Made by a program: the position numbers and the translations under genes. Of a stretch of DNA of 32,803 bases, positions 5 through 16,247 are shown in pieces. The DNA lies in the IMG/VR virus record IMGVR_UViG_3300010885_077769, positions 1-32,803 of that record; one strand, 5' to 3'. This DNA comes from a virus. The notes beneath the pieces are model-generated. The model did no database searches, had not been told where the DNA came from, and saw only the letters and a program-made list of their open reading frames with translations. The stretch's first letter is position 1, and each line of letters opens with the position of its first letter.

Positions 5-193
5 CTACTGCTGTGCTACCGGCACAACGATCTCGTCCTCGGGTGAGAACTGATCGACCGGAGCGAGTTCTGCGGTATACACTACCTCGACGCCATACGG
101 CGTGTCAAGTAGGGTAGGCCAATCCCAGTTTGCCGGATGATCTGCGCGCTCGTCCACTTCGATAGACAAGCTCACCAAGTATGTTCGCGCCAT
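5..193 (-). CDS. Small hypothetical acidic protein (62 aa)
   Basis: A 62-residue acidic protein beginning MARTYLVSLSIEVDE. The ATG at 193 has a strong AGGAGG Shine-Dalgarno (plus 199-204). I recognise no domain; the start looks like a beta-strand. It is the last gene of the leftward run in this window and has its own promoter (plus 235-263) and leader hairpin (plus 215-228), so it can be expressed independently of the genes behind it. Function unknown; the gene call is secure because of the ribosome-binding site and promoter. Confidence 0.75.
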   Translation of the reverse strand: MARTYLVSLSIEVDERADHPANWDWPTLLDTPYGVEVVYTAELAPVDQFSPEDEIVVPVAQQ

Positions 194-973: not shown

Positions 974-1285
974 CTACGGCTGTACGATTGTGGAGTCTGA
1001 GTATACCAGACCATACGATTCGGGATCGTGGCCAATGCGCGACTCAAGCTTCAGGGCCGGCATCTCGACCTTCCTAATGCTCTCGCCACAGTCATGGCAC
1101 CTGATCTCGGTAATGTCTGGGTAGCTGTATTCCTCAGGATTCTGCTGAACGGCAATCTGCGCCTTATCACCTTCGCCGATGATGGAGCAGACTACCTCAA
1201 GCAGCCCATAGAAGTAGATGCCATCCCACCACTCATCGGACGCCCGGGTCTTGCCGGAGCAGCCCTTATGAAGATAGGCCTTCAT
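974..1285 (-). CDS. Zinc-ribbon-like hypothetical protein (103 aa)
   Basis: 103 residues starting MKAYLHKGCSGK. The ATG at 1285 overlaps the upstream stop as ATGA, with GGAGAAG as ribosome-binding site. HKGC near the N-terminus and IRCHDCGESIRK in the middle make a plausible Cys/His zinc-ribbon. Its stop codon lies inside the Shine-Dalgarno of the 18-residue peptide downstream. Function unknown. Confidence 0.7.
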   Translation of the reverse strand: MKAYLHKGCSGKTRASDEWWDGIYFYGLLEVVCSIIGEGDKAQIAVQQNPEEYSYPDITEIRCHDCGESIRKVEMPALKLESRIGHDPESYGLVYSDSTIVQP

Positions 1286-1533
1286 GACTGCTTCTCCAAG
1301 GAGATCGCCTTATCCGCATAGTCCATACCTTCGGCGGTGAGCTTCCGTACTTCCTCGGAGTCTCCATCCTTCTCATAGGAGACCAAGGCCTCCTGATAGG
1401 CGACACCCGCACGGAGCCACTCCATTGCCGCCATAGGGTTCTCTGACTCCCTGCCATTCAGAAACGCGGTAGCCGCCCGGCTCCTGAGGAATCCATCGAG
1501 CAAGCCGCTCTCATACTTCTGGCCGTCTGCCAT
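1282..1533 (-). CDS. Hypothetical helical protein (83 aa), operon head
   Basis: Starts MADGQKYESG at 1533 behind AGGAGGT (plus 1541-1547); a longer frame to 1575 would remove the leader hairpin and is less likely. The protein is helix-rich and acidic with two Ala/Glu-rich helices (EWLRAGVAYQEALVSYEK region), resembling small TPR-like or helical-hairpin proteins, but I cannot assign a family. It is first in the leftward operon, under the promoter at 1575-1603. Confidence 0.7.
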   Translation of the reverse strand: MADGQKYESGLLDGFLRSRAATAFLNGRESENPMAAMEWLRAGVAYQEALVSYEKDGDSEEVRKLTAEGMDYADKAISLEKQS

Positions 1534-2938: not shown

Positions 2939-3598
2939 ATGTCATACGTCATTGCAAACATCCCGCCCATTGCCTGCTATGTCCGTAAGGAGTACCTTCG
3001 AGACTTCCAGGATGGTCACGGAGAGTTCACCCCCGCCTACTGGGTCACCGTCAAGGCAATCCCTCACCGCGCTTTGTACATTGAGGCCTTTCTGCCCGAG
3101 TACGGCGCTCTATACGACAAGCTGCCGATTAGCGCCTTTGTCTGGAAGCCCCAAATCCCTAGCCCAGACCTAACGCTTGGCGACCTCCAGCTTTGGGATG
3201 CCATCTCGCCGCAGTTAGCCGTGGTTGAGAAGGCAGTATTGAAAAACATGCGCTGCAAATTCCGAACGCCCGCAGGGGTGTGGAGCGAAGGGCACTACTT
3301 GTTTACCGTTGACATGGTGCACAGCGACCCCAATGAGATTGATGCGTATTGGTCACGTGTTCCTGCAGAACATAAGTCGTACAACTTTATGCGCTTGGAC
3401 AACGGTCAGTTTGCTGCCCAGCCAAACAACAGAGTGCTGTGGTTGGACGAAGCACTTGTCTACAAGGAAACCAAGATGCCGGACTTCAAGGTTTCCACCA
3501 AGGAATTCTCGGCGGAAGAGGGCCGGTGGAAACTTGGTGATAGCGATGCTTGGGGCTACGAGCCAACACCTAAAGTTGACAATCCAAAAACCACCTGA
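2939..3598 (+). CDS. Conserved-looking phage protein, unknown function (219 aa)
   Basis: MSYVIANIPPIACYVRKEYL start behind AAGGGGAAGGT. A soluble aromatic-rich protein with motifs DGHGEFTPAYWVTVKAIP, AFLPEYGALYDKLPISAFVW and LDNGQFAAQPNNRVLW. From memory, proteins with these motifs occur in aquatic tailed phages, annotated only as hypothetical; I could not check this. No catalytic motif is evident. Its 3' end contains the promoter (3576-3604) for the next operon. Confidence 0.75.
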   Translation: MSYVIANIPPIACYVRKEYLRDFQDGHGEFTPAYWVTVKAIPHRALYIEAFLPEYGALYDKLPISAFVWKPQIPSPDLTLGDLQLWDAISPQLAVVEKAVLKNMRCKFRTPAGVWSEGHYLFTVDMVHSDPNEIDAYWSRVPAEHKSYNFMRLDNGQFAAQPNNRVLWLDEALVYKETKMPDFKVSTKEFSAEEGRWKLGDSDAWGYEPTPKVDNPKTT

Positions 3599-3604
3599 TA
3601 CCGT
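3576..3604 (+). promoter_or_regulatory. Sigma70-type promoter for the zinc-finger/sigma operon
   Basis: TTGACA (3576-3581), 17-bp spacer, TACCGT (3599-3604). Predicted start about 3611, giving a leader of about 150 nt. The -10 matches only TAnnnT. Confidence 0.45.
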
Positions 3605-3610
3605 TCCTCT

Positions 3611-3761
3611 TGTACCCACCGGGGAACATCAACAACCGGGGAAAAGAGATGCGAGTCTCTGCTCTCGGAAGTAGAACGGTTCGCCATAACCCGGTGGGGC
3701 ACTTGTGTCGGTTGAGGCGGGACTCCTACCCCGCCTCCCGATACCACAGTAGGAGGTACAC
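3611..3761 (+). promoter_or_regulatory. Structured 150-nt 5' leader
   Basis: No gene fits here. CCCACCGGG (3615-3623) pairs perfectly with CCCGGTGGG (3690-3698). Inside is AGAGA-TGCGAG-TCTCT (3645-3660). Downstream is an 8-bp hairpin GAGGCGGG/CCCGCCTC (3714-3721/3730-3737), whose loop holds CTCCTAC, complementary to the GTAGGAG of the ribosome-binding site (3749-3755). ACCGGGGAA is repeated directly at 3618 and 3635. A regulatory leader is plausible; no known riboswitch is recognised. Confidence 0.45.
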
Positions 3762-3983
3762 ATGAAGACTCGAGAACTTAGGAAGACCGCCCGAAAGGTC
3801 GCCAAAGCTCGCGGCCACCAGCTCACCAAGTTCACCCACCTGATGGGTGCCGGCTGGGATCTTGCCAGCCATGCCCAGTGCGAGAAGTGCGGGTTTGAGG
3901 TCAGCGTCTATCCGAGCCCTGCCCCAAACGGCATTGACATTGCCGGAAACGCGGTTGCGGTGAATTGCGGCACGCCAGCGTGA
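3762..3983 (+). CDS. Small zinc-finger-like protein (73 aa)
   Basis: ATG follows AGTAGGAGGTACAC. Basic N-terminus (MKTRELRKTARKVAKARG) and a CEKCGF knuckle with a second, weaker C-terminal Cys. The arrangement suggests a small nucleic-acid-binding protein. It is the first gene of a five-gene overlapping operon that ends with a sigma-like protein and another Cys-rich protein. Confidence 0.7.
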   Translation: MKTRELRKTARKVAKARGHQLTKFTHLMGAGWDLASHAQCEKCGFEVSVYPSPAPNGIDIAGNAVAVNCGTPA

Positions 3984-4156: not shown

Positions 4157-4362
4157 TGCCAATGAAGGTGTGCGTGCGTTGCAAAGAGGATTGGCCAACA
4201 GATACTGAATTTTACAAAACAGCTGATTCGATCAAGTGCATCGCCTGCGAGAGCGAAAGTCAAGATTGGCGGAAGTACCGCACCCCTGAGCATATGGCTC
4301 GTCGAAGGGAATATCAACGCGCGTATCAAGCGCGAAAGAATCAGAGGGAGGCCCAGTCATGA
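4156..4362 (+). CDS. Zinc-knuckle protein resembling endonuclease VII N-terminus (68 aa)
   Basis: TAATG overlap with the upstream gene. KVCVRCKEDWPTDTEFY and KCIACESE give two C-x2-C pairs, followed by a basic helix ending ARRREYQRAYQARKNQR. This is the layout seen in the N-terminal zinc module of recombination endonuclease VII-like phage proteins, but the HNH-type catalytic part is absent. Probably a nucleic-acid-binding remnant or stand-alone finger. Confidence 0.7.
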   Translation: MPMKVCVRCKEDWPTDTEFYKTADSIKCIACESESQDWRKYRTPEHMARRREYQRAYQARKNQREAQS

Positions 4363-4775
4363 CCCGAAAGAAAATTGTCACAGCTGAAGATGTGCGCGAG
4401 CTCAAAAAGCTCCTAGACACAGAGTACCTTACATCGTTAGATGCGCCGGTGTCTGAGGAGGGCGACAGCTCCTTTGGGGATTTCCTCAAAGATGAACACG
4501 CAGCCGACCCGCTAACTGAGGCCATGAGGAACGCCATGATAGAGGCGGTTCACTCGGTTCTTGACTCCCTGCCTTCGCGTGACCGGCAGATCTTGTCTAT
4601 GCGCTACGGCATTGGTTTTCCCCGCCCGATGACCATGGAAGAGATCGGTGCAGAGTTCAGCCTCTCCCGTGAGCGTGTTCGCCAGATTGAGAACGCCGCC
4701 ATGAAAACGCTGCGGCACCCAAGCAGAATGCGTAAAATGCGGCCGTACTCCGATGGCACCGGTAAGCAGCCATGA
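4359..4775 (+). CDS. RpoD-like sigma region 3.2-4 protein without region 2 (138 aa)
   Basis: Residues 26-46 (SLDAPVSEEGDSSFGDFLKD) match the region 3.2 linker of primary sigma factors. Residues 66-88 (VLDSLPSRDRQILSMRYGIG) match region 4.1, and residues 92-124 (MTMEEIGAEFSLSRERVRQ, then LRHPSR) match the region 4.2 helix-turn-helix. The first 25 residues do not match region 2, so the -10-recognising part is absent. By family knowledge region 4 binds the RNA polymerase beta-flap and the -35 element. An RNA polymerase appropriator or competitor is a reasonable inference. ATGA overlaps both neighbours. Confidence 0.88.
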   Translation: MTRKKIVTAEDVRELKKLLDTEYLTSLDAPVSEEGDSSFGDFLKDEHAADPLTEAMRNAMIEAVHSVLDSLPSRDRQILSMRYGIGFPRPMTMEEIGAEFSLSRERVRQIENAAMKTLRHPSRMRKMRPYSDGTGKQP

Positions 4776-4993
4776 CCGAAAGCGGACGATGCTGCTTCTA
4801 TTGCGGCAAACCCATGGCGCAACCGACCGAAAGCCGCTGCTGCAGCACGAAGTGCGAGCAGCTGGCGCTTAGGGTCGAGAGGACTTCGATGGACGAGCTT
4901 CTTGACGACCGGCTGGCAGAGATGAAGTTCCTGCGGCCTATAAACCCAGATCCGGTGACGGCAATTGCAAAAGAGCTTAAGCGGGGTAGTTGA
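4772..4993 (+). CDS. Small zinc-ribbon protein (73 aa)
   Basis: ATGA overlap with the sigma-like gene. CCFYCGKPM and CCSTKCEQ form a C-x2-C...C-x3-C knuckle near the N-terminus. The rest is helical and acidic-basic mixed. The close coupling to the sigma-like gene suggests co-expression, perhaps a shared transcriptional role (inference). Its last codons overlap the -35 of the promoter at 4990. Confidence 0.7.
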   Translation: MTESGRCCFYCGKPMAQPTESRCCSTKCEQLALRVERTSMDELLDDRLAEMKFLRPINPDPVTAIAKELKRGS

Positions 4994-5018
4994 CAGGCGA
5001 ATACCGATGCCTTAGGAT
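4990..5018 (+). promoter_or_regulatory. Strong sigma70-type promoter
   Basis: TTGACA (4990-4995), 17-bp spacer, TAGGAT (5013-5018); predicted start about 5025. The hexamers, spacer length and GCCTTAGGAT match the leftward promoter 1575-1603. Confidence 0.75.
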
Positions 5019-5024
5019 GTGTTG

Positions 5025-5038
5025 GCGGGGTTTCCCGC
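5025..5038 (+). promoter_or_regulatory. 5'-terminal leader hairpin
   Basis: GCGGG-GTTT-CCCGC at the predicted mRNA 5' end, 6 nt before GTAGGAGG (5045-5052). Same design as the hairpins at 215-228 and 1555-1566. Confidence 0.55.
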
Positions 5039-5058
5039 TATAGAGTAGGAGGTAGTAA

Positions 5059-5481
5059 ATGAGCTGCACGTATTGCGATCCGGCAACAAGCACAGAGATT
5101 AAGGTCACTCTTGGTGAAGGCACTATGGGCGTCTACACGGCCCGAGTCCGCACCGATTACCGGTGGAACGGCTGGCTCTGCCCAGCATTTGATTTCAAGA
5201 CCGCCCTGCGTGTTGCGGCTGACACCCACATCCTCGCCTCAGAGGCCACCGAAGAGGGCGACCATGGCGACATGGTGGAGTTTGCTTCGTATAACGCCCG
5301 GTACGGTACGTTTATCATGAGCGGCGGCGGTCGCTCGGTAGATGACGAACTTGTGGAGATTAACGCCACGAGCTGCTGTGGGCGCTATGATATTGGAGCA
5401 ATGAACTGGACGTGGGTAGAAGATATGCCTGAGCTGGGAGATGAGCCGGAATTTACGGCCACAATCCCCGTGCCAGTCTGA
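5059..5481 (+). CDS. CDPxTS...CCGRYxIGA family protein, copy 1 (140 aa)
   Basis: Starts MSCTYCDPATSTE behind GTAGGAGG. N-terminal C-x2-C-D-P and C-terminal SCCGRYDIGAMNWTW recur in the 8948-9373 protein, so the two are paralogues with matching termini and divergent middles. The Cys clusters could together make one split zinc site. First gene of the operon under the 4990 promoter. No known family recognised; function unknown. Confidence 0.75.
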   Translation: MSCTYCDPATSTEIKVTLGEGTMGVYTARVRTDYRWNGWLCPAFDFKTALRVAADTHILASEATEEGDHGDMVEFASYNARYGTFIMSGGGRSVDDELVEINATSCCGRYDIGAMNWTWVEDMPELGDEPEFTATIPVPV

Positions 5482-10517: not shown

Positions 10518-10526
10518 TGGTATCAT
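10518..10526 (+). promoter_or_regulatory. Extended -10 promoter TGG-TATCAT
   Basis: TATCAT preceded by TGG, predicted start about 10533, in the divergent spacer between the ParB-like gene and 10575. No -35 match at 17 bp. Confidence 0.4.
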
Positions 10527-10529
10527 CTA

Positions 10530-10560
10530 GACAAGAGCCCGGAAGGGTGCTAGGCTTGTC
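10530..10560 (+). promoter_or_regulatory. Leader hairpin next to the ribosome-binding site
   Basis: GACAAG (10530-10535) pairs with CTTGTC (10555-10560), with an inner AGC/GCT plus CC/GG extension. GGGAGG (10564-10569) follows 3 nt later. No T-tract, so a leader element rather than a terminator. Confidence 0.45.
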
Positions 10561-10574
10561 GAAGGGAGGTACCT

Positions 10575-11303
10575 ATGAAGCTACCGGCACACAGAGCTCA
10601 CCGACGATTTTGGACAGTGCTCGTTGCGTTGGCCGTGGCTACGGGCACTCTCCTTTATTCAGGGGCCCTACAAATTCATCCCGTAGAGGGGCCAACGCAG
10701 CCCGTAGAGACGCTTGGGCCGCCTGTCAGCCCTATAGACCCATGGGCCAAGGCAAAGACTTACAGCGGCCCGTTTCGCATCGCCACCACTTACGACGCCT
10801 TCCATGACGCAAACGTCCAGGCGTGGTACTCCCTAAGCAGCAAGGGAAAGCGCGGCTTTAACGGCTGGATCTACGCCAGCAAGGCTGATTGCGCTAAAAA
10901 CCCTGGGTGGAAGTGCTACACGCGGATGGTTGGCCCCTATAAAAAGCTGGTGCGCAACTGGACAAGCCCAATCAAAAATATGTACGCCGCCCTTGGCCCG
11001 GCGCTTCGAAAGCTGATCGGCAATCAAATCCCAATGTGGCACACTGCCCCTAGCAATAAAATTCTTATTACCTCTGTTGAGACCGGCATTGCTGTTGAGG
11101 TTTGGATTGCCGATTCCTGCGGATGCGGGGGAAACGACCAGGTCGCCGGAACAAAGGATGATCGGCTTGTTGATTTGAGCCCAGAGGCGTGGGCGGCGCT
11201 TGGCAGGGTGACATGGTATGATGCAAAAGGTAAGCGGCATTACAAGAATGCTGACGGAAGTAAGTGGAATAGCAACGCCGTAACTATTAAATACTTTGAT
11301 TAG
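10575..11303 (+). CDS. Exported double-psi beta-barrel (RlpA/expansin-like) protein (242 aa)
   Basis: Residues 11-30 are a signal anchor (WTVLVALAVATGTLLYSG), followed by a Pro-rich linker. The C-terminal half has ITSVETGIAVEVWIAD and DDRLVDLSPEAWAALG, matching the VxNxxNGxxVxVxVND...RxIDLSxAA pattern of RlpA-type double-psi barrels. Asp180 occupies the conserved acidic position; Cys182 and Cys184 may be disulphide-bonded. Acting on the cell wall outside the membrane is plausible (lysis or wall remodelling), but activity is unproven. It heads a short operon. Confidence 0.68.
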   Translation: MKLPAHRAHRRFWTVLVALAVATGTLLYSGALQIHPVEGPTQPVETLGPPVSPIDPWAKAKTYSGPFRIATTYDAFHDANVQAWYSLSSKGKRGFNGWIYASKADCAKNPGWKCYTRMVGPYKKLVRNWTSPIKNMYAALGPALRKLIGNQIPMWHTAPSNKILITSVETGIAVEVWIADSCGCGGNDQVAGTKDDRLVDLSPEAWAALGRVTWYDAKGKRHYKNADGSKWNSNAVTIKYFD

Positions 11304-11311
11304 GAGGGAAC

Positions 11312-11671
11312 ATGGGGCCAGAGCTTGTATTTATTCTTTCCCAGATTAGCGTGGGCCGCAAGAACGCCATTACCTATAAAGACCTTTCCCAGCGCACCCG
11401 GTGGAACAGCCGGGCAATCCAGCTGGCGGTCGAAGAGTTGCGAAATGTTTGGGAGCAGCCGATTTGCTCGGCATCCGACGCCCCGGCCGGGATCTACCTC
11501 GCCACCAGCTCTGAGGAGCTTGAGGCGTGGTCGAACATGCAACGAGAGCGCGCCCGGAGCCTTCTTCGATCTTCTTGGGCTGTCCGAAAGATTGCCAAGA
11601 AGTGGAAGGTCCAAGAAGATCAGGCTCGCCGCGACAACGCAATGCCTGGAGAGGTGACGCTCGGGCTATAG
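11312..11671 (+). CDS. Helix-turn-helix phage regulator (119 aa)
   Basis: ITYKDLSQRTRWNSRAIQLA (about residues 21-40) is a winged-helix recognition region. It is followed by a PICSASDAPAGIYLATS wing and a basic C-terminal helix (RARSLLRSSWAVRKIAKKW). This order is common in small phage HTH proteins related to replication organisers. Start behind TAGGAGGGAAC. It ends just before the promoter at 11654-11682, which lies partly inside it. Confidence 0.68.
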   Translation: MGPELVFILSQISVGRKNAITYKDLSQRTRWNSRAIQLAVEELRNVWEQPICSASDAPAGIYLATSSEELEAWSNMQRERARSLLRSSWAVRKIAKKWKVQEDQARRDNAMPGEVTLGL

Positions 11672-11682
11672 CGTGTTATAGT
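11654..11682 (+). promoter_or_regulatory. Sigma70-type promoter with extended -10
   Basis: GTGACG (11654-11659), 17-bp spacer, TATAGT (11677-11682) preceded by TGT. Predicted start about 11688-11689, at the first base of the GGGGCCG stem. GTGTTATAGTCC recurs exactly at 15361. Confidence 0.6.
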
Positions 11683-11687
11683 CCCCT

Positions 11688-11759
11688 GGGGCCGAGTAAA
11701 CGCCAAAGGTCATCATGCCTGAGGGTAACGGCGGGTGTAACTCCCGCCCGGCTCCACCA
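11688..11759 (+). ncRNA. tRNA/tmRNA-like structured leader, 72 nt ending CCA
   Basis: GGGGCCG (11688-11694) pairs with CGGCTCC (11749-11755), 7 bp with one G-U, followed by A and CCA (11757-11759). Just inside is GGCGGG-TGTAACT-CCCGCC with a 7-nt loop, like a T-arm. The 3' end recalls bacterial tmRNA/tRNA 3' ends, but the T-loop lacks the TTC consensus, no D-arm is present and no 5-bp anticodon stem forms. It begins at the predicted transcription start and ends just before the AAGGAG of the FmdB-like gene. It may be a tRNA-mimic leader, a degenerate tRNA or an attP remnant. Confidence 0.35.
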
Positions 11760-15024: not shown

Positions 15025-15245
15025 TTCTTTTTACCTGCGTCTGCGGAAATTGTTGGGCCACACTTCTTGTGATACTGTCGAAATACTGAGCGCCTAGCTG
15101 CGCCTTCTGGGAACCAGATGTGCTTCCAGGTGCTTATCTCATTTGACATGATGTTATTGGAACATGTATAGCAAGCTATGCCAGTCAGGTGCGCCGGCTT
15201 TGGGGTTGCCTTAAGCGTGAGCTTTGTGTTTGTTTTGCCTGCCAT
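15021..15245 (-). CDS. Small basic Cys-containing protein (74 aa)
   Basis: MAGKTNTKLTLKATPKPAHL start behind AAAGGAGG. CYTCSNN and a later KKCG give a possible C-x2-C...C site; the protein is basic and ends DAGKKK. First gene of the three-gene leftward cluster, with two hairpins in its leader. Probably nucleic-acid-binding; no family recognised. Confidence 0.65.
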   Translation of the reverse strand: MAGKTNTKLTLKATPKPAHLTGIACYTCSNNIMSNEISTWKHIWFPEGAARRSVFRQYHKKCGPTISADAGKKK

Positions 15246-15263
15246 AATGCCTCCTTTCTTCCA

Positions 15264-15298
15264 GGCGCCCTTGTGGCGCCACTCCCCGGATAAAGGGG
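15264..15298 (-). promoter_or_regulatory. Two leader hairpins before the 15245 start
   Basis: CCCC/GGGG (15284-15287/15295-15298, 7-nt loop) starts near the predicted mRNA 5' end. GGCGCC-N5-GGCGCC (15264-15269/15275-15280) is followed 7 nt later by AAGGAGG on the minus strand. Confidence 0.45.
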
Positions 15299-15307
15299 CA
15301 GTAACAC

Positions 15308-15337
15308 AAGATAGTGGCGACTTGGTTACAAGCGCAA
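15308..15337 (-). promoter_or_regulatory. Possible sigma70-type promoter, leftward
   Basis: Minus-strand TTGCGC (plus 15332-15337), 18-bp spacer, TATCTT (plus 15308-15313); start about 15301. Confidence 0.4.
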
Positions 15338-15341
15338 TCCT

Positions 15342-15370
15342 GTGAAAATCTACTCATGGTGTGTTATAGT
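15342..15370 (+). promoter_or_regulatory. Sigma70-type promoter, leaderless start
   Basis: GTGAAA (15342-15347), 17-bp spacer, TATAGT (15365-15370) preceded by TGT. The ATG at 15377 is at the predicted transcription start; no Shine-Dalgarno is present. Confidence 0.6.
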
Positions 15371-15376
15371 CCTGCC

Positions 15377-15598
15377 ATGAACAACACACCGCCACCGAGC
15401 CCTAAAGTTGCGGCAATTTGGTACCTATGGTCTTCGTCGTTTAACATCGCCCTGGCGTACTCTCCAAGGTGGACAAACGACACCGACCCATACGCGGTGC
15501 ATTTTCCAGAAAACATTCAAGCGGAGGATTTTGTGAGACTCAATGAAGAAGAGGCCCAGTGGCTTATTACCATGAAATCGTCGGTGAAAAATGGCTAA
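15377..15598 (+). CDS. Hypothetical protein, leaderless start (73 aa)
   Basis: MNNTPPPSPKVAAIWYLWSS start. Tryptophan-rich, no Cys pairs, ending in an acidic helix (LNEEEAQWLITMKSS). The ATG lacks a Shine-Dalgarno and lies 6 nt after TATAGT. The stop lies 7 nt inside the next gene. It opens the second part of the glycosylation cassette. Function unknown. Confidence 0.68.
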   Translation: MNNTPPPSPKVAAIWYLWSSSFNIALAYSPRWTNDTDPYAVHFPENIQAEDFVRLNEEEAQWLITMKSSVKNG

Positions 15599-16247
15599 GA
15601 CACTCTTGATCGTGCCGACCAGGCACCGGCCAGCATCGTGCGACGCTTTGCTAAAGCAATTTCGTGAAACGTCTGAAGATTGCGACATTTTGTTCGGAAT
15701 TGACGAGGACGACTTCTCCCCGTACTCGGACGAGGTGATGGCCCTTGCGTCTGTGAACCCGCGCCTGCGAATGTGCGGAACGCTGAACCTTCTTGCCGTC
15801 AAGCATGCCAACGACTATGAGTACCTTGCATTTATGGGCGACGATCACCGGCCTATGACCAAGGGCTGGGACACAGAGCTTGCAAAAGAAATTGGCGACC
15901 GGGACGGCGTGGCATACGGAAACGACCTTTTGCAGGGTCAGAATCTTCCTACCGCCGTAATGATGTCGGCATCAATCGTTCGGGCTATTGGGTACATGGC
16001 GCCGCCGGAGCTTATCCACATGTACATGGATAATTTTTGGAAGGCGCTTGGACAGGATCTTGGCCACCTCATTTACCGTAGCGACGTTATCATTGAGCAC
16101 CTGCACCCATTGGCTGGGAAGTCACAGAATGATGCCGGGTATATGGAGGTTAATAGCCCAGAGATTTATACCAAGGACGTAGTTGCCTTTGACCGATATC
16201 TTCGAGATCGGTTTGTTAGTGATCTCCAAAAAATCCTTAACAAGTGA
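15591..16247 (+). CDS. Glycosyltransferase-like protein (218 aa)
   Basis: MAKTLLIVPTRHRPASCDAL opens a GT-A fold (P-T-R-x-R-P start seen in GT2-like enzymes). CDILFGIDEDD and LAFMGDDHRP (Asp84-Asp85) provide acidic motifs in the DxD position. YRSDVIIEHLHPLAGKS contributes a late EHxHP metal/acceptor motif. It overlaps the next gene as GTGA. Substrate unknown; it probably works with the neighbouring transferases and epimerase. Confidence 0.74.
   Translation: MAKTLLIVPTRHRPASCDALLKQFRETSEDCDILFGIDEDDFSPYSDEVMALASVNPRLRMCGTLNLLAVKHANDYEYLAFMGDDHRPMTKGWDTELAKEIGDRDGVAYGNDLLQGQNLPTAVMMSASIVRAIGYMAPPELIHMYMDNFWKALGQDLGHLIYRSDVIIEHLHPLAGKSQNDAGYMEVNSPEIYTKDVVAFDRYLRDRFVSDLQKILNK

Follow-up and report, generated by a model that had tools for sequence, protein, structure and literature searches.

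A hairpin with an R-N-U-U loop at the predicted 5' end of early messages in a clade of uncultivated freshwater phages

Operon heads and other leaders in the window

The window analysed here, 32,803 bases long, is an entire IMG/VR contig. Three of its operon heads, A, B and C (Table 1), share a single plan in which TTGACA, a 17-nt spacer and a -10 element are followed by a 5-bp hairpin with a 4-nt loop, the Shine-Dalgarno (SD) sequence GTAGGAGG and an ATG; an earlier note on this DNA had claimed three such strict copies, at 4990-5059, 1533-1603 and 193-263, and all of them lie where it placed them. The gene product behind head A has no family match. In the folded leaders of all three heads the SD is outside the hairpin and unmasked, and in hairpin A an extra outer pair, G5024-U5039, is possible. 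The energy of the hairpins is modest, with leaders at -6.5 to -10.6 kcal/mol (the minimum free energy of leader A being -10.6 kcal/mol), and the three leaders fold little better than their own shuffles (z -1.7 to +0.5).

Table 1. Coordinates of the operon heads and leader elements discussed in the text. Positions are those of the window unless a related locus is named.
Feature	Position	Strand	Details
Promoter, head A	TTGACA 4990-4995; TAGGAT 5013-5018	+	17-nt spacer
Hairpin A	5025-5038	+	GCGGG-GTTT-CCCGC; loop begins 11 nt past -10
Predicted +1, head A	G5025	+	from 11-nt register
SD, head A	5045-5052	+	GTAGGAGG; ATG 5059
Gene behind head A	5059-5481	+	140 aa
Promoter, head B	TTGACA 1603-1598; TAGGAT 1580-1575	-	
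Hairpin B	1567-1554	-	GCCCC-ACTT-GGGGT; loop begins 12 nt past -10
Predicted +1, head B	A1568	-	from 12-nt register
SD, head B	1548-1541	-	GTAGGAGG; ATG 1533
Gene behind head B	1282-1533	-	83 aa
Promoter, head C	TTGACA 263-258; GATACT 240-235	-	
Hairpin C	228-215	-	ATCCC-GCTT-GGGAT; loop begins 11 nt past -10
Predicted +1, head C	A228	-	from 11-nt register
SD, head C	206-199	-	GTAGGAGG; ATG 193
Gene behind head C	5-193	-	62 aa
Promoter and long conserved structured leader RNA	3576-3762	+	TTGACA 3576; not the same element
-10, hairpin and SD	10518-10577	+	TATCAT; GACAAG-AGCCC...GGGTGCT...CTTGTC; GGGAGG; not RNTT class
Leader RNA resembling the tmRNA tRNA-like domain	11688-11759	+	not the same element
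Leader with several hairpins	15245-15337	-	number varies among relatives; not RNTT class
Second-class promoter heads, L231	9778, 12859, 13939, 14479, 15052	+	
Second-class promoter heads, L179	7714, 6664, 6158, 5039	-	

The pattern TTGACA-N40-60-GTAGGAGG has three matches in the contig, against none for the same pattern read backwards. Promoters as such show no excess in the first 20 kb of the window (13 against 13.8 in shuffles), where heads A, B and C are three of the four top-scoring sites, and the surprise therefore lies in the hairpin behind the promoter and not in the promoter alone. A motif close to TTGACARRMTRATACY stands directly behind the -35 in many heads (window 4990; L083, L211, L217 and L238) and is possibly an operator or activator site. 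Positions 4359-4775 encode a 138-aa protein with sigma-70 regions 3 and 4 and without region 2 (Pfam PF04545, PF04539); it might serve the TTGACA heads as a regulator that binds their -35, or represent one half of a split sigma factor.

Four looser versions of the design had also been proposed in the window; they prove to be real leaders of a different kind from the RNTT hairpin heads. The one behind the TTGACA at 3576 carries a structured RNA of about 150 nt, supported by 11 pairs with compensatory changes, found in 12 contigs and without a match in Rfam. The loop of its second hairpin, ACTCCTAC (CTCCTAC, at about 3724-3730), is complementary to the SD GTAGGAG at 3749-3755, some 20 nt further on, and is identical in seven of nine relatives, so this hairpin could hide the SD. 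The leader (3595-3762) also has a long covarying stem, CCCACCGGG.../CCCGGTGGG, with a conserved GGTTCGCCATAAC; its kin are in L238, L227, L229, L240, L226 and L219, with a shorter form in L211 and L217, and it is possible that it acts as an SD-hiding switch or as a trans-acting anti-SD for the GTAGGAGG heads.

A second of these leaders lies ahead of a zinc-ribbon gene, with a GTGTTATAGT promoter on one side and the gene's SD on the other. It resembles the tRNA-like domain of tmRNA: its acceptor-like stem has 7 bp with G-U as the third pair, one hairpin looks like a T-arm, and the end reads ACCA. Related contigs conserve it in 14 stretches (for example L167, L184, L219, L225, L229 and L240). 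Its match to the Rfam tmRNA family is weak, at 10.8 bits (E 0.008), far under the gathering score of 47. The T-loop, TG(T/A)AACT, is without the usual TTC, the RNA is just 72 nt long, with neither an mRNA module and tag peptide nor pseudoknots, and ARAGORN found no tmRNA. Rfam searches of the window and of the separate leaders gave nothing beyond this match. The promoter-like sequence GTGTTATAGTC is common to 11654-11682 (+) and 15342-15380 (+); the latter would yield a nearly leaderless message, with an ATG about 7 nt past the -10.

Spread of the hairpin among related phages

Relatives were reached through the sigma-like protein encoded at 4359-4775, and range from L083-L085 (99% protein and about 95% DNA identity) through L086 (82% protein identity) to L087-L088 (about 55%). 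The heads are kept in close and medium relatives of this kind. Orthologous leaders of head A exist in them, the orthologs of hairpin B read CCCT-ATTT-GGGG, CCCT-CTTT-GGGG and CACCCC-ACTT-GGGGTG, and the homologue of head C in G003, G018 and G028 has the stem-loop ACGGC-AGTT-GCCGT instead. Two more heads, with ACGGC-AGTT-GCCGT and ACTCC-ACTT-GGAGT, lie in the relatives' sequence beyond the left end of the window. Homologous genes in different phages thus have different stems under the same type of loop, as is also seen at the MPNWCVNQ gene (ACTCC-ACTT-GGAGT, GCGGG-GCTT-CCCGC or TGGC-AGTT-GCCA). The sequences GTAGGAGG and GCCTTAGGAT are incidental and no part of the element: homologous heads differ in their -10, SD and stem, and the start-proximal sequences across heads include GTAGGAGG, AAGGAGG, AGGAGA and others.

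A pattern scan of 30 related records gave forward matches in number (nine in G009, eight in G019, five in G001), against one match across all 30 for the reversed control pattern, and two further scans brought in new records whose added heads have different stems and obey the same loop rule. At least two such heads occur in 75 loci from about 40 contigs. The clade comprises about 40 IMG/VR contigs, the longest of 73-91 kb, with the design heading up to about 20 operons per genome; its members are uncultivated freshwater phages in which the hairpin opens most of the short, early messages at their predicted first nucleotide.

Megablast of the window against 50,697 named phages gave no match, named relatives of the terminase and the sigma-like protein are all distant, and a terminase search of GTDB genomes found no relative. 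Other proteins of the window point to Streptomyces phages or to cyanophages: the glycosyltransferase at 15591-16247 has its nearest relatives in Streptomyces phages, and the product of 2939-3598, from a family annotated as PurM or ferredoxin, shares 50-55% identity with proteins of cyanophages and pelagiphages. Most phages to which nothing but TTGACA...GTAGGAGG had led are without the hairpin, and a few of them have other hairpins near +1 with no common loop. No promoter-linked RNTT hairpin was found in the stretches examined of S-EIV1, MW202426, TM4 and Annadreamy.

In another phage, L100 (heads at 4741, 3756 and 1854, minus strand) hairpins with variable stems and a common GAGGAAA loop lie near the +1 of TTGACA promoters, perhaps an independent version with another loop code. 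The G019 heads at L213 1242, 3718 and 6218 (+) have a hairpin with an NGGAGA loop just before the SD, and in L013 (4232), L014, L015 and L029 (15474) the promoter spacer holds CCTCCTACGTGT, a perfect inverted repeat of the ACACGTAGGAGG found at the SD of the same gene.

The excess over chance was measured on 95 distinct leaders (TTGAC promoter, SD and start codon) collected from the family records without using the hairpin. A hairpin of at least 4 bp beginning 4-9 nt past the -10 is present in 75 of the 95, against 10.9 ± 3.2 (maximum 23) in 200 dinucleotide shuffles, and a tetraloop hairpin in 63, against 3.5 (maximum 9); the remaining 20 TTGAC heads, about a fifth, lack a hairpin. Loop letters played no part in the choice, and T stands at loop position 3 in 63/63 and at position 4 in 61/63. 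When hairpins upstream of an SD were sought blind to the promoter, a TTGAC promoter preceded 82 of the 96 with an NNTT loop and four of the 146 with any other loop ending; most NNTT hairpins without it are explained by other promoters or by coding sequence. When RNTT sites 9-18 nt past a -10 were taken blind to pairing, all four flanking pairs were present at 71 of 97; loops with a different final dinucleotide reached 1-10%. Finally, in a search blind to the loop, TT ends the loop in 192 of 220 distinct TTGAC/-10 leaders with a tetraloop, and 187 of them conform to the consensus RNTT. It could be argued that the design is a chance likeness of three strong promoters, given that the window has just three strict copies, but the shuffle tests, the relatives and the promoter-, pairing- and loop-blind tests refute this reading, and its probability is negligible.

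A strong SD always lies within about 30 nt behind the hairpin, as would suit a translation element that places or boosts ribosome entry there. Such an element would be expected at internal genes too, however, whereas the NNTT hairpins are nearly all promoter-proximal, and folding leaves the SD of the leaders clear of the hairpin; we regard this function as unlikely.

An RNA-level element at the predicted start of the transcript

Across 46 distinct 14-nt cores, changes on both sides of the stem are found at all five pairs. Compensatory changes, whose absence from relatives the earlier note had named as grounds for giving up the idea, are therefore abundant. Of the pair cells 97.4% are paired (shuffling gives 52% and sliding 39-50%), a figure inflated because the cores were picked by their inner pairs; the covariation score in the same set is 1.05 against 0.23, and the pairing-blind RNTT test and the start-site tests that follow are less biased.

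The loop begins 11 (n=80) or 12 (n=89) nt past the -10 in 169 of 192 heads. In the 11-nt register the nominal +1 is a purine in each of the 67 heads, and bases further upstream of it pair no more often than in column shuffles. With the 12-nt register covariation extends to +2, where pairing is 75% Watson-Crick (25% after shuffling), and has disappeared at +1. The covarying helix thus begins at +1/+2 of the promoter-predicted start, leaving few or no unpaired 5' nucleotides. TT keeps to loop positions 3-4 whichever register is used, and is therefore a property of the loop and not of a fixed promoter position. Moreover, in G001 and L179 nine heads have a 7-8 bp version of the hairpin behind a quite different type of promoter. 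This second class, approximately CCTAACGAG..CAC.TAAATGAATC..N..GRCATTMTYC, also places an RNTT hairpin at the predicted start (Table 1).

A fixed register to the -10, and the frequency of repeated operators in phage genomes, might instead suggest that a dyad at +1 acts in the DNA, as an operator or part of the promoter; this has been proposed for the extended start-associated sequences (ESAS) of cluster K mycobacteriophages. The two arms have no common sequence among the 46 cores, yet they are complementary; the complementarity ends at the start site, the TT shifts with the loop and not with DNA position, and the hairpin stands behind two distinct promoter classes. On these grounds we rule out a DNA operator, which retains only the slightest probability. 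That covariation ends at the predicted start, on a purine +1, marks instead an RNA hairpin at the extreme 5' end, and the comparisons show an RNA-level element in which stem sequence is free, pairing and loop are kept, and the position is tied to the predicted 5' end. Nor does the hairpin terminate the operon before it: it is at +1 and nearly all copies are without a T-run.

The earlier note had drawn a parallel with the start-associated sequences (SAS) of mycobacteriophages, and the likeness holds loosely. Cluster K SAS and ESAS are repeated at many early operon heads with a SigA-like promoter and ribosome site, as is the hairpin described here (PMC3203893, PMC11373665). SAS is a fixed 13-bp sequence, GGGATAGGAGCCC (PMC3203893, PMC11373665), and the inverted repeats of ESAS keep their sequence; those who described ESAS saw little evidence of pairing in the RNA and preferred to read them as sites of DNA binding (PMC3203893). 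In the present clade, by contrast, there is no conserved GGGATAGGAGCCC at the start codon and the inverted repeats are not conserved in sequence; stems vary freely while remaining paired, and the hairpin lies at +1. The 18-bp palindromes of Microbacterium cluster EG phages, of fixed sequence GATCAACCNNGGTTGATC, and the 17-bp repeats of cluster O mycobacteriophages are also inverted repeats, which lie in short gaps just 5' of starts (PMC7302621). Both are fixed in sequence, as DNA-protein sites would be, and have no RNTT loop; the cluster EG palindromes are likely DNA operator or promoter elements. Our literature search, which covered few subscription papers, found SAS/ESAS and fixed palindromes as the only comparable phage designs; none of the papers described a 5' hairpin used as a module throughout a clade.

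A putative role in 5'-end protection

Protection from 5'-dependent decay, the role at which the earlier note had guessed, is our best inference for the hairpin, and we consider it rather probable that the early operons carry it as a standard 5'-terminal module that shields their mRNA. According to this model, which is built from sequence comparison, a sigma-70-type promoter (TTGAC-N, 16-19 nt, (T/G)A...T) heads most early operons of the clade, and the transcript would begin on a purine and immediately fold into a G/C-rich hairpin of 4-6 bp, from about +1/+2 to +14/+15, which carries the R-N-U-U loop and is followed by an unstructured stretch and a strong SD. Because at most about one 5' nucleotide stays unpaired, the hairpin would block both pyrophosphohydrolase of the RppH type and 5'-end-dependent attack by RNase E or RNase J. 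The strong ribosome site would contribute to protection, and short early messages would persist in the infected cell. Such effects have precedents: B. subtilis RppH requires two or more unpaired nucleotides at the 5' end, its action is hindered and the mRNA stabilised when a hairpin is appended there, and long downstream stretches are shielded by a ribosome binding site or a 5' hairpin (PMC3997798).

By anatomy, the closest known counterparts of the predicted module are the 5' stabilisers of ompA, papA and aprE. The ompA and papA 5' UTRs of E. coli, synthetic 5' hairpins and the B. subtilis aprE leader have a hairpin at the very 5' end; like the phage module, they combine it with a short single-stranded stretch and a strong ribosome site, and both would be expected to affect RppH, RNase E and RNase J in the same way (PMC3997798, PMC7509114). 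The phage hairpin shares with the ompA/aprE type its position at the extreme 5' end, as given by the promoter-predicted start, and the keeping of stem structure rather than stem sequence. Whereas ompA, papA and aprE are single leaders of individual genes, the phage module is repeated across a genome and a clade, with a fixed register and an RNUU loop over stems that drift freely.

The early units of G028 are short, mostly of one to a few genes, and strong terminator-like hairpins separate several of them, so that each message would need its own protection. For the same reason antitermination at every head makes little sense. The hairpin does bear a likeness to a nut- or put-like signal that would load an antitermination complex: lambda boxB is a hairpin of about 5 bp with a conserved GNRA-like pentaloop, lying downstream in the leader with a boxA partner, and the phage hairpin has a similar length and a small, conserved loop, promoter-proximal in each early unit. 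It differs from boxB in lying at +1 on short units and in its loop, an RNUU tetraloop instead of a GNRA-like one (RNTT in 187/220 leaders), and no similar element was found in the literature search. Antitermination is in our judgement very unlikely.

A uniform UU in the loop, which the earlier note had not remarked on, is needless for protection and suggests an added role in recognition or stability. With less confidence than for protection, we propose that R1 and U4 may pair across a two-nucleotide turn, adding stability, and that the invariant U3 may be read by a host or phage factor. It is conceivable, though doubtful, that the hairpin serves above all for binding: an RNA-binding protein of phage or host would read the R-N-U-U loop as a tag on phage early mRNAs, in the service of translation, stability or the control of timing. 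A conserved loop atop a variable stem is the usual mark of protein-recognised hairpins, and here the loop T's (63/63 and 61/63, and 192/220 in the wider set) sit on stems that vary widely. However, no candidate protein appeared among the families shown by Pfam and PHROGs scans of the 76 G028 proteins, none stood out among the 39 shared genes, and neither set held a convincing loop-binding protein or phage RNase; since an R1-U4 pair is possible, the loop is perhaps partly conserved for stability alone. In a related and equally tentative proposal, the R-N-U-U hairpin would be a phage-specific mark of the mRNA end, an analogue of a cap read by a dedicated phage protein or a captured host protein. 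If true, such a mark would distinguish the phage's messages from those of the host, so that they are protected or translated during takeover.

Protective 5' hairpins have so far been known from single genes, and here they would stand on most early operons of a clade. Their constant register and loop, together with a free stem, make the clade a natural mutagenesis data set for the protection or marking of mRNA 5' ends. It makes testable whether phage defence against 5'-dependent decay is a general strategy, and whether a factor reads the loop, and the signature may be used to find transcript starts and early operons in uncultivated phages.
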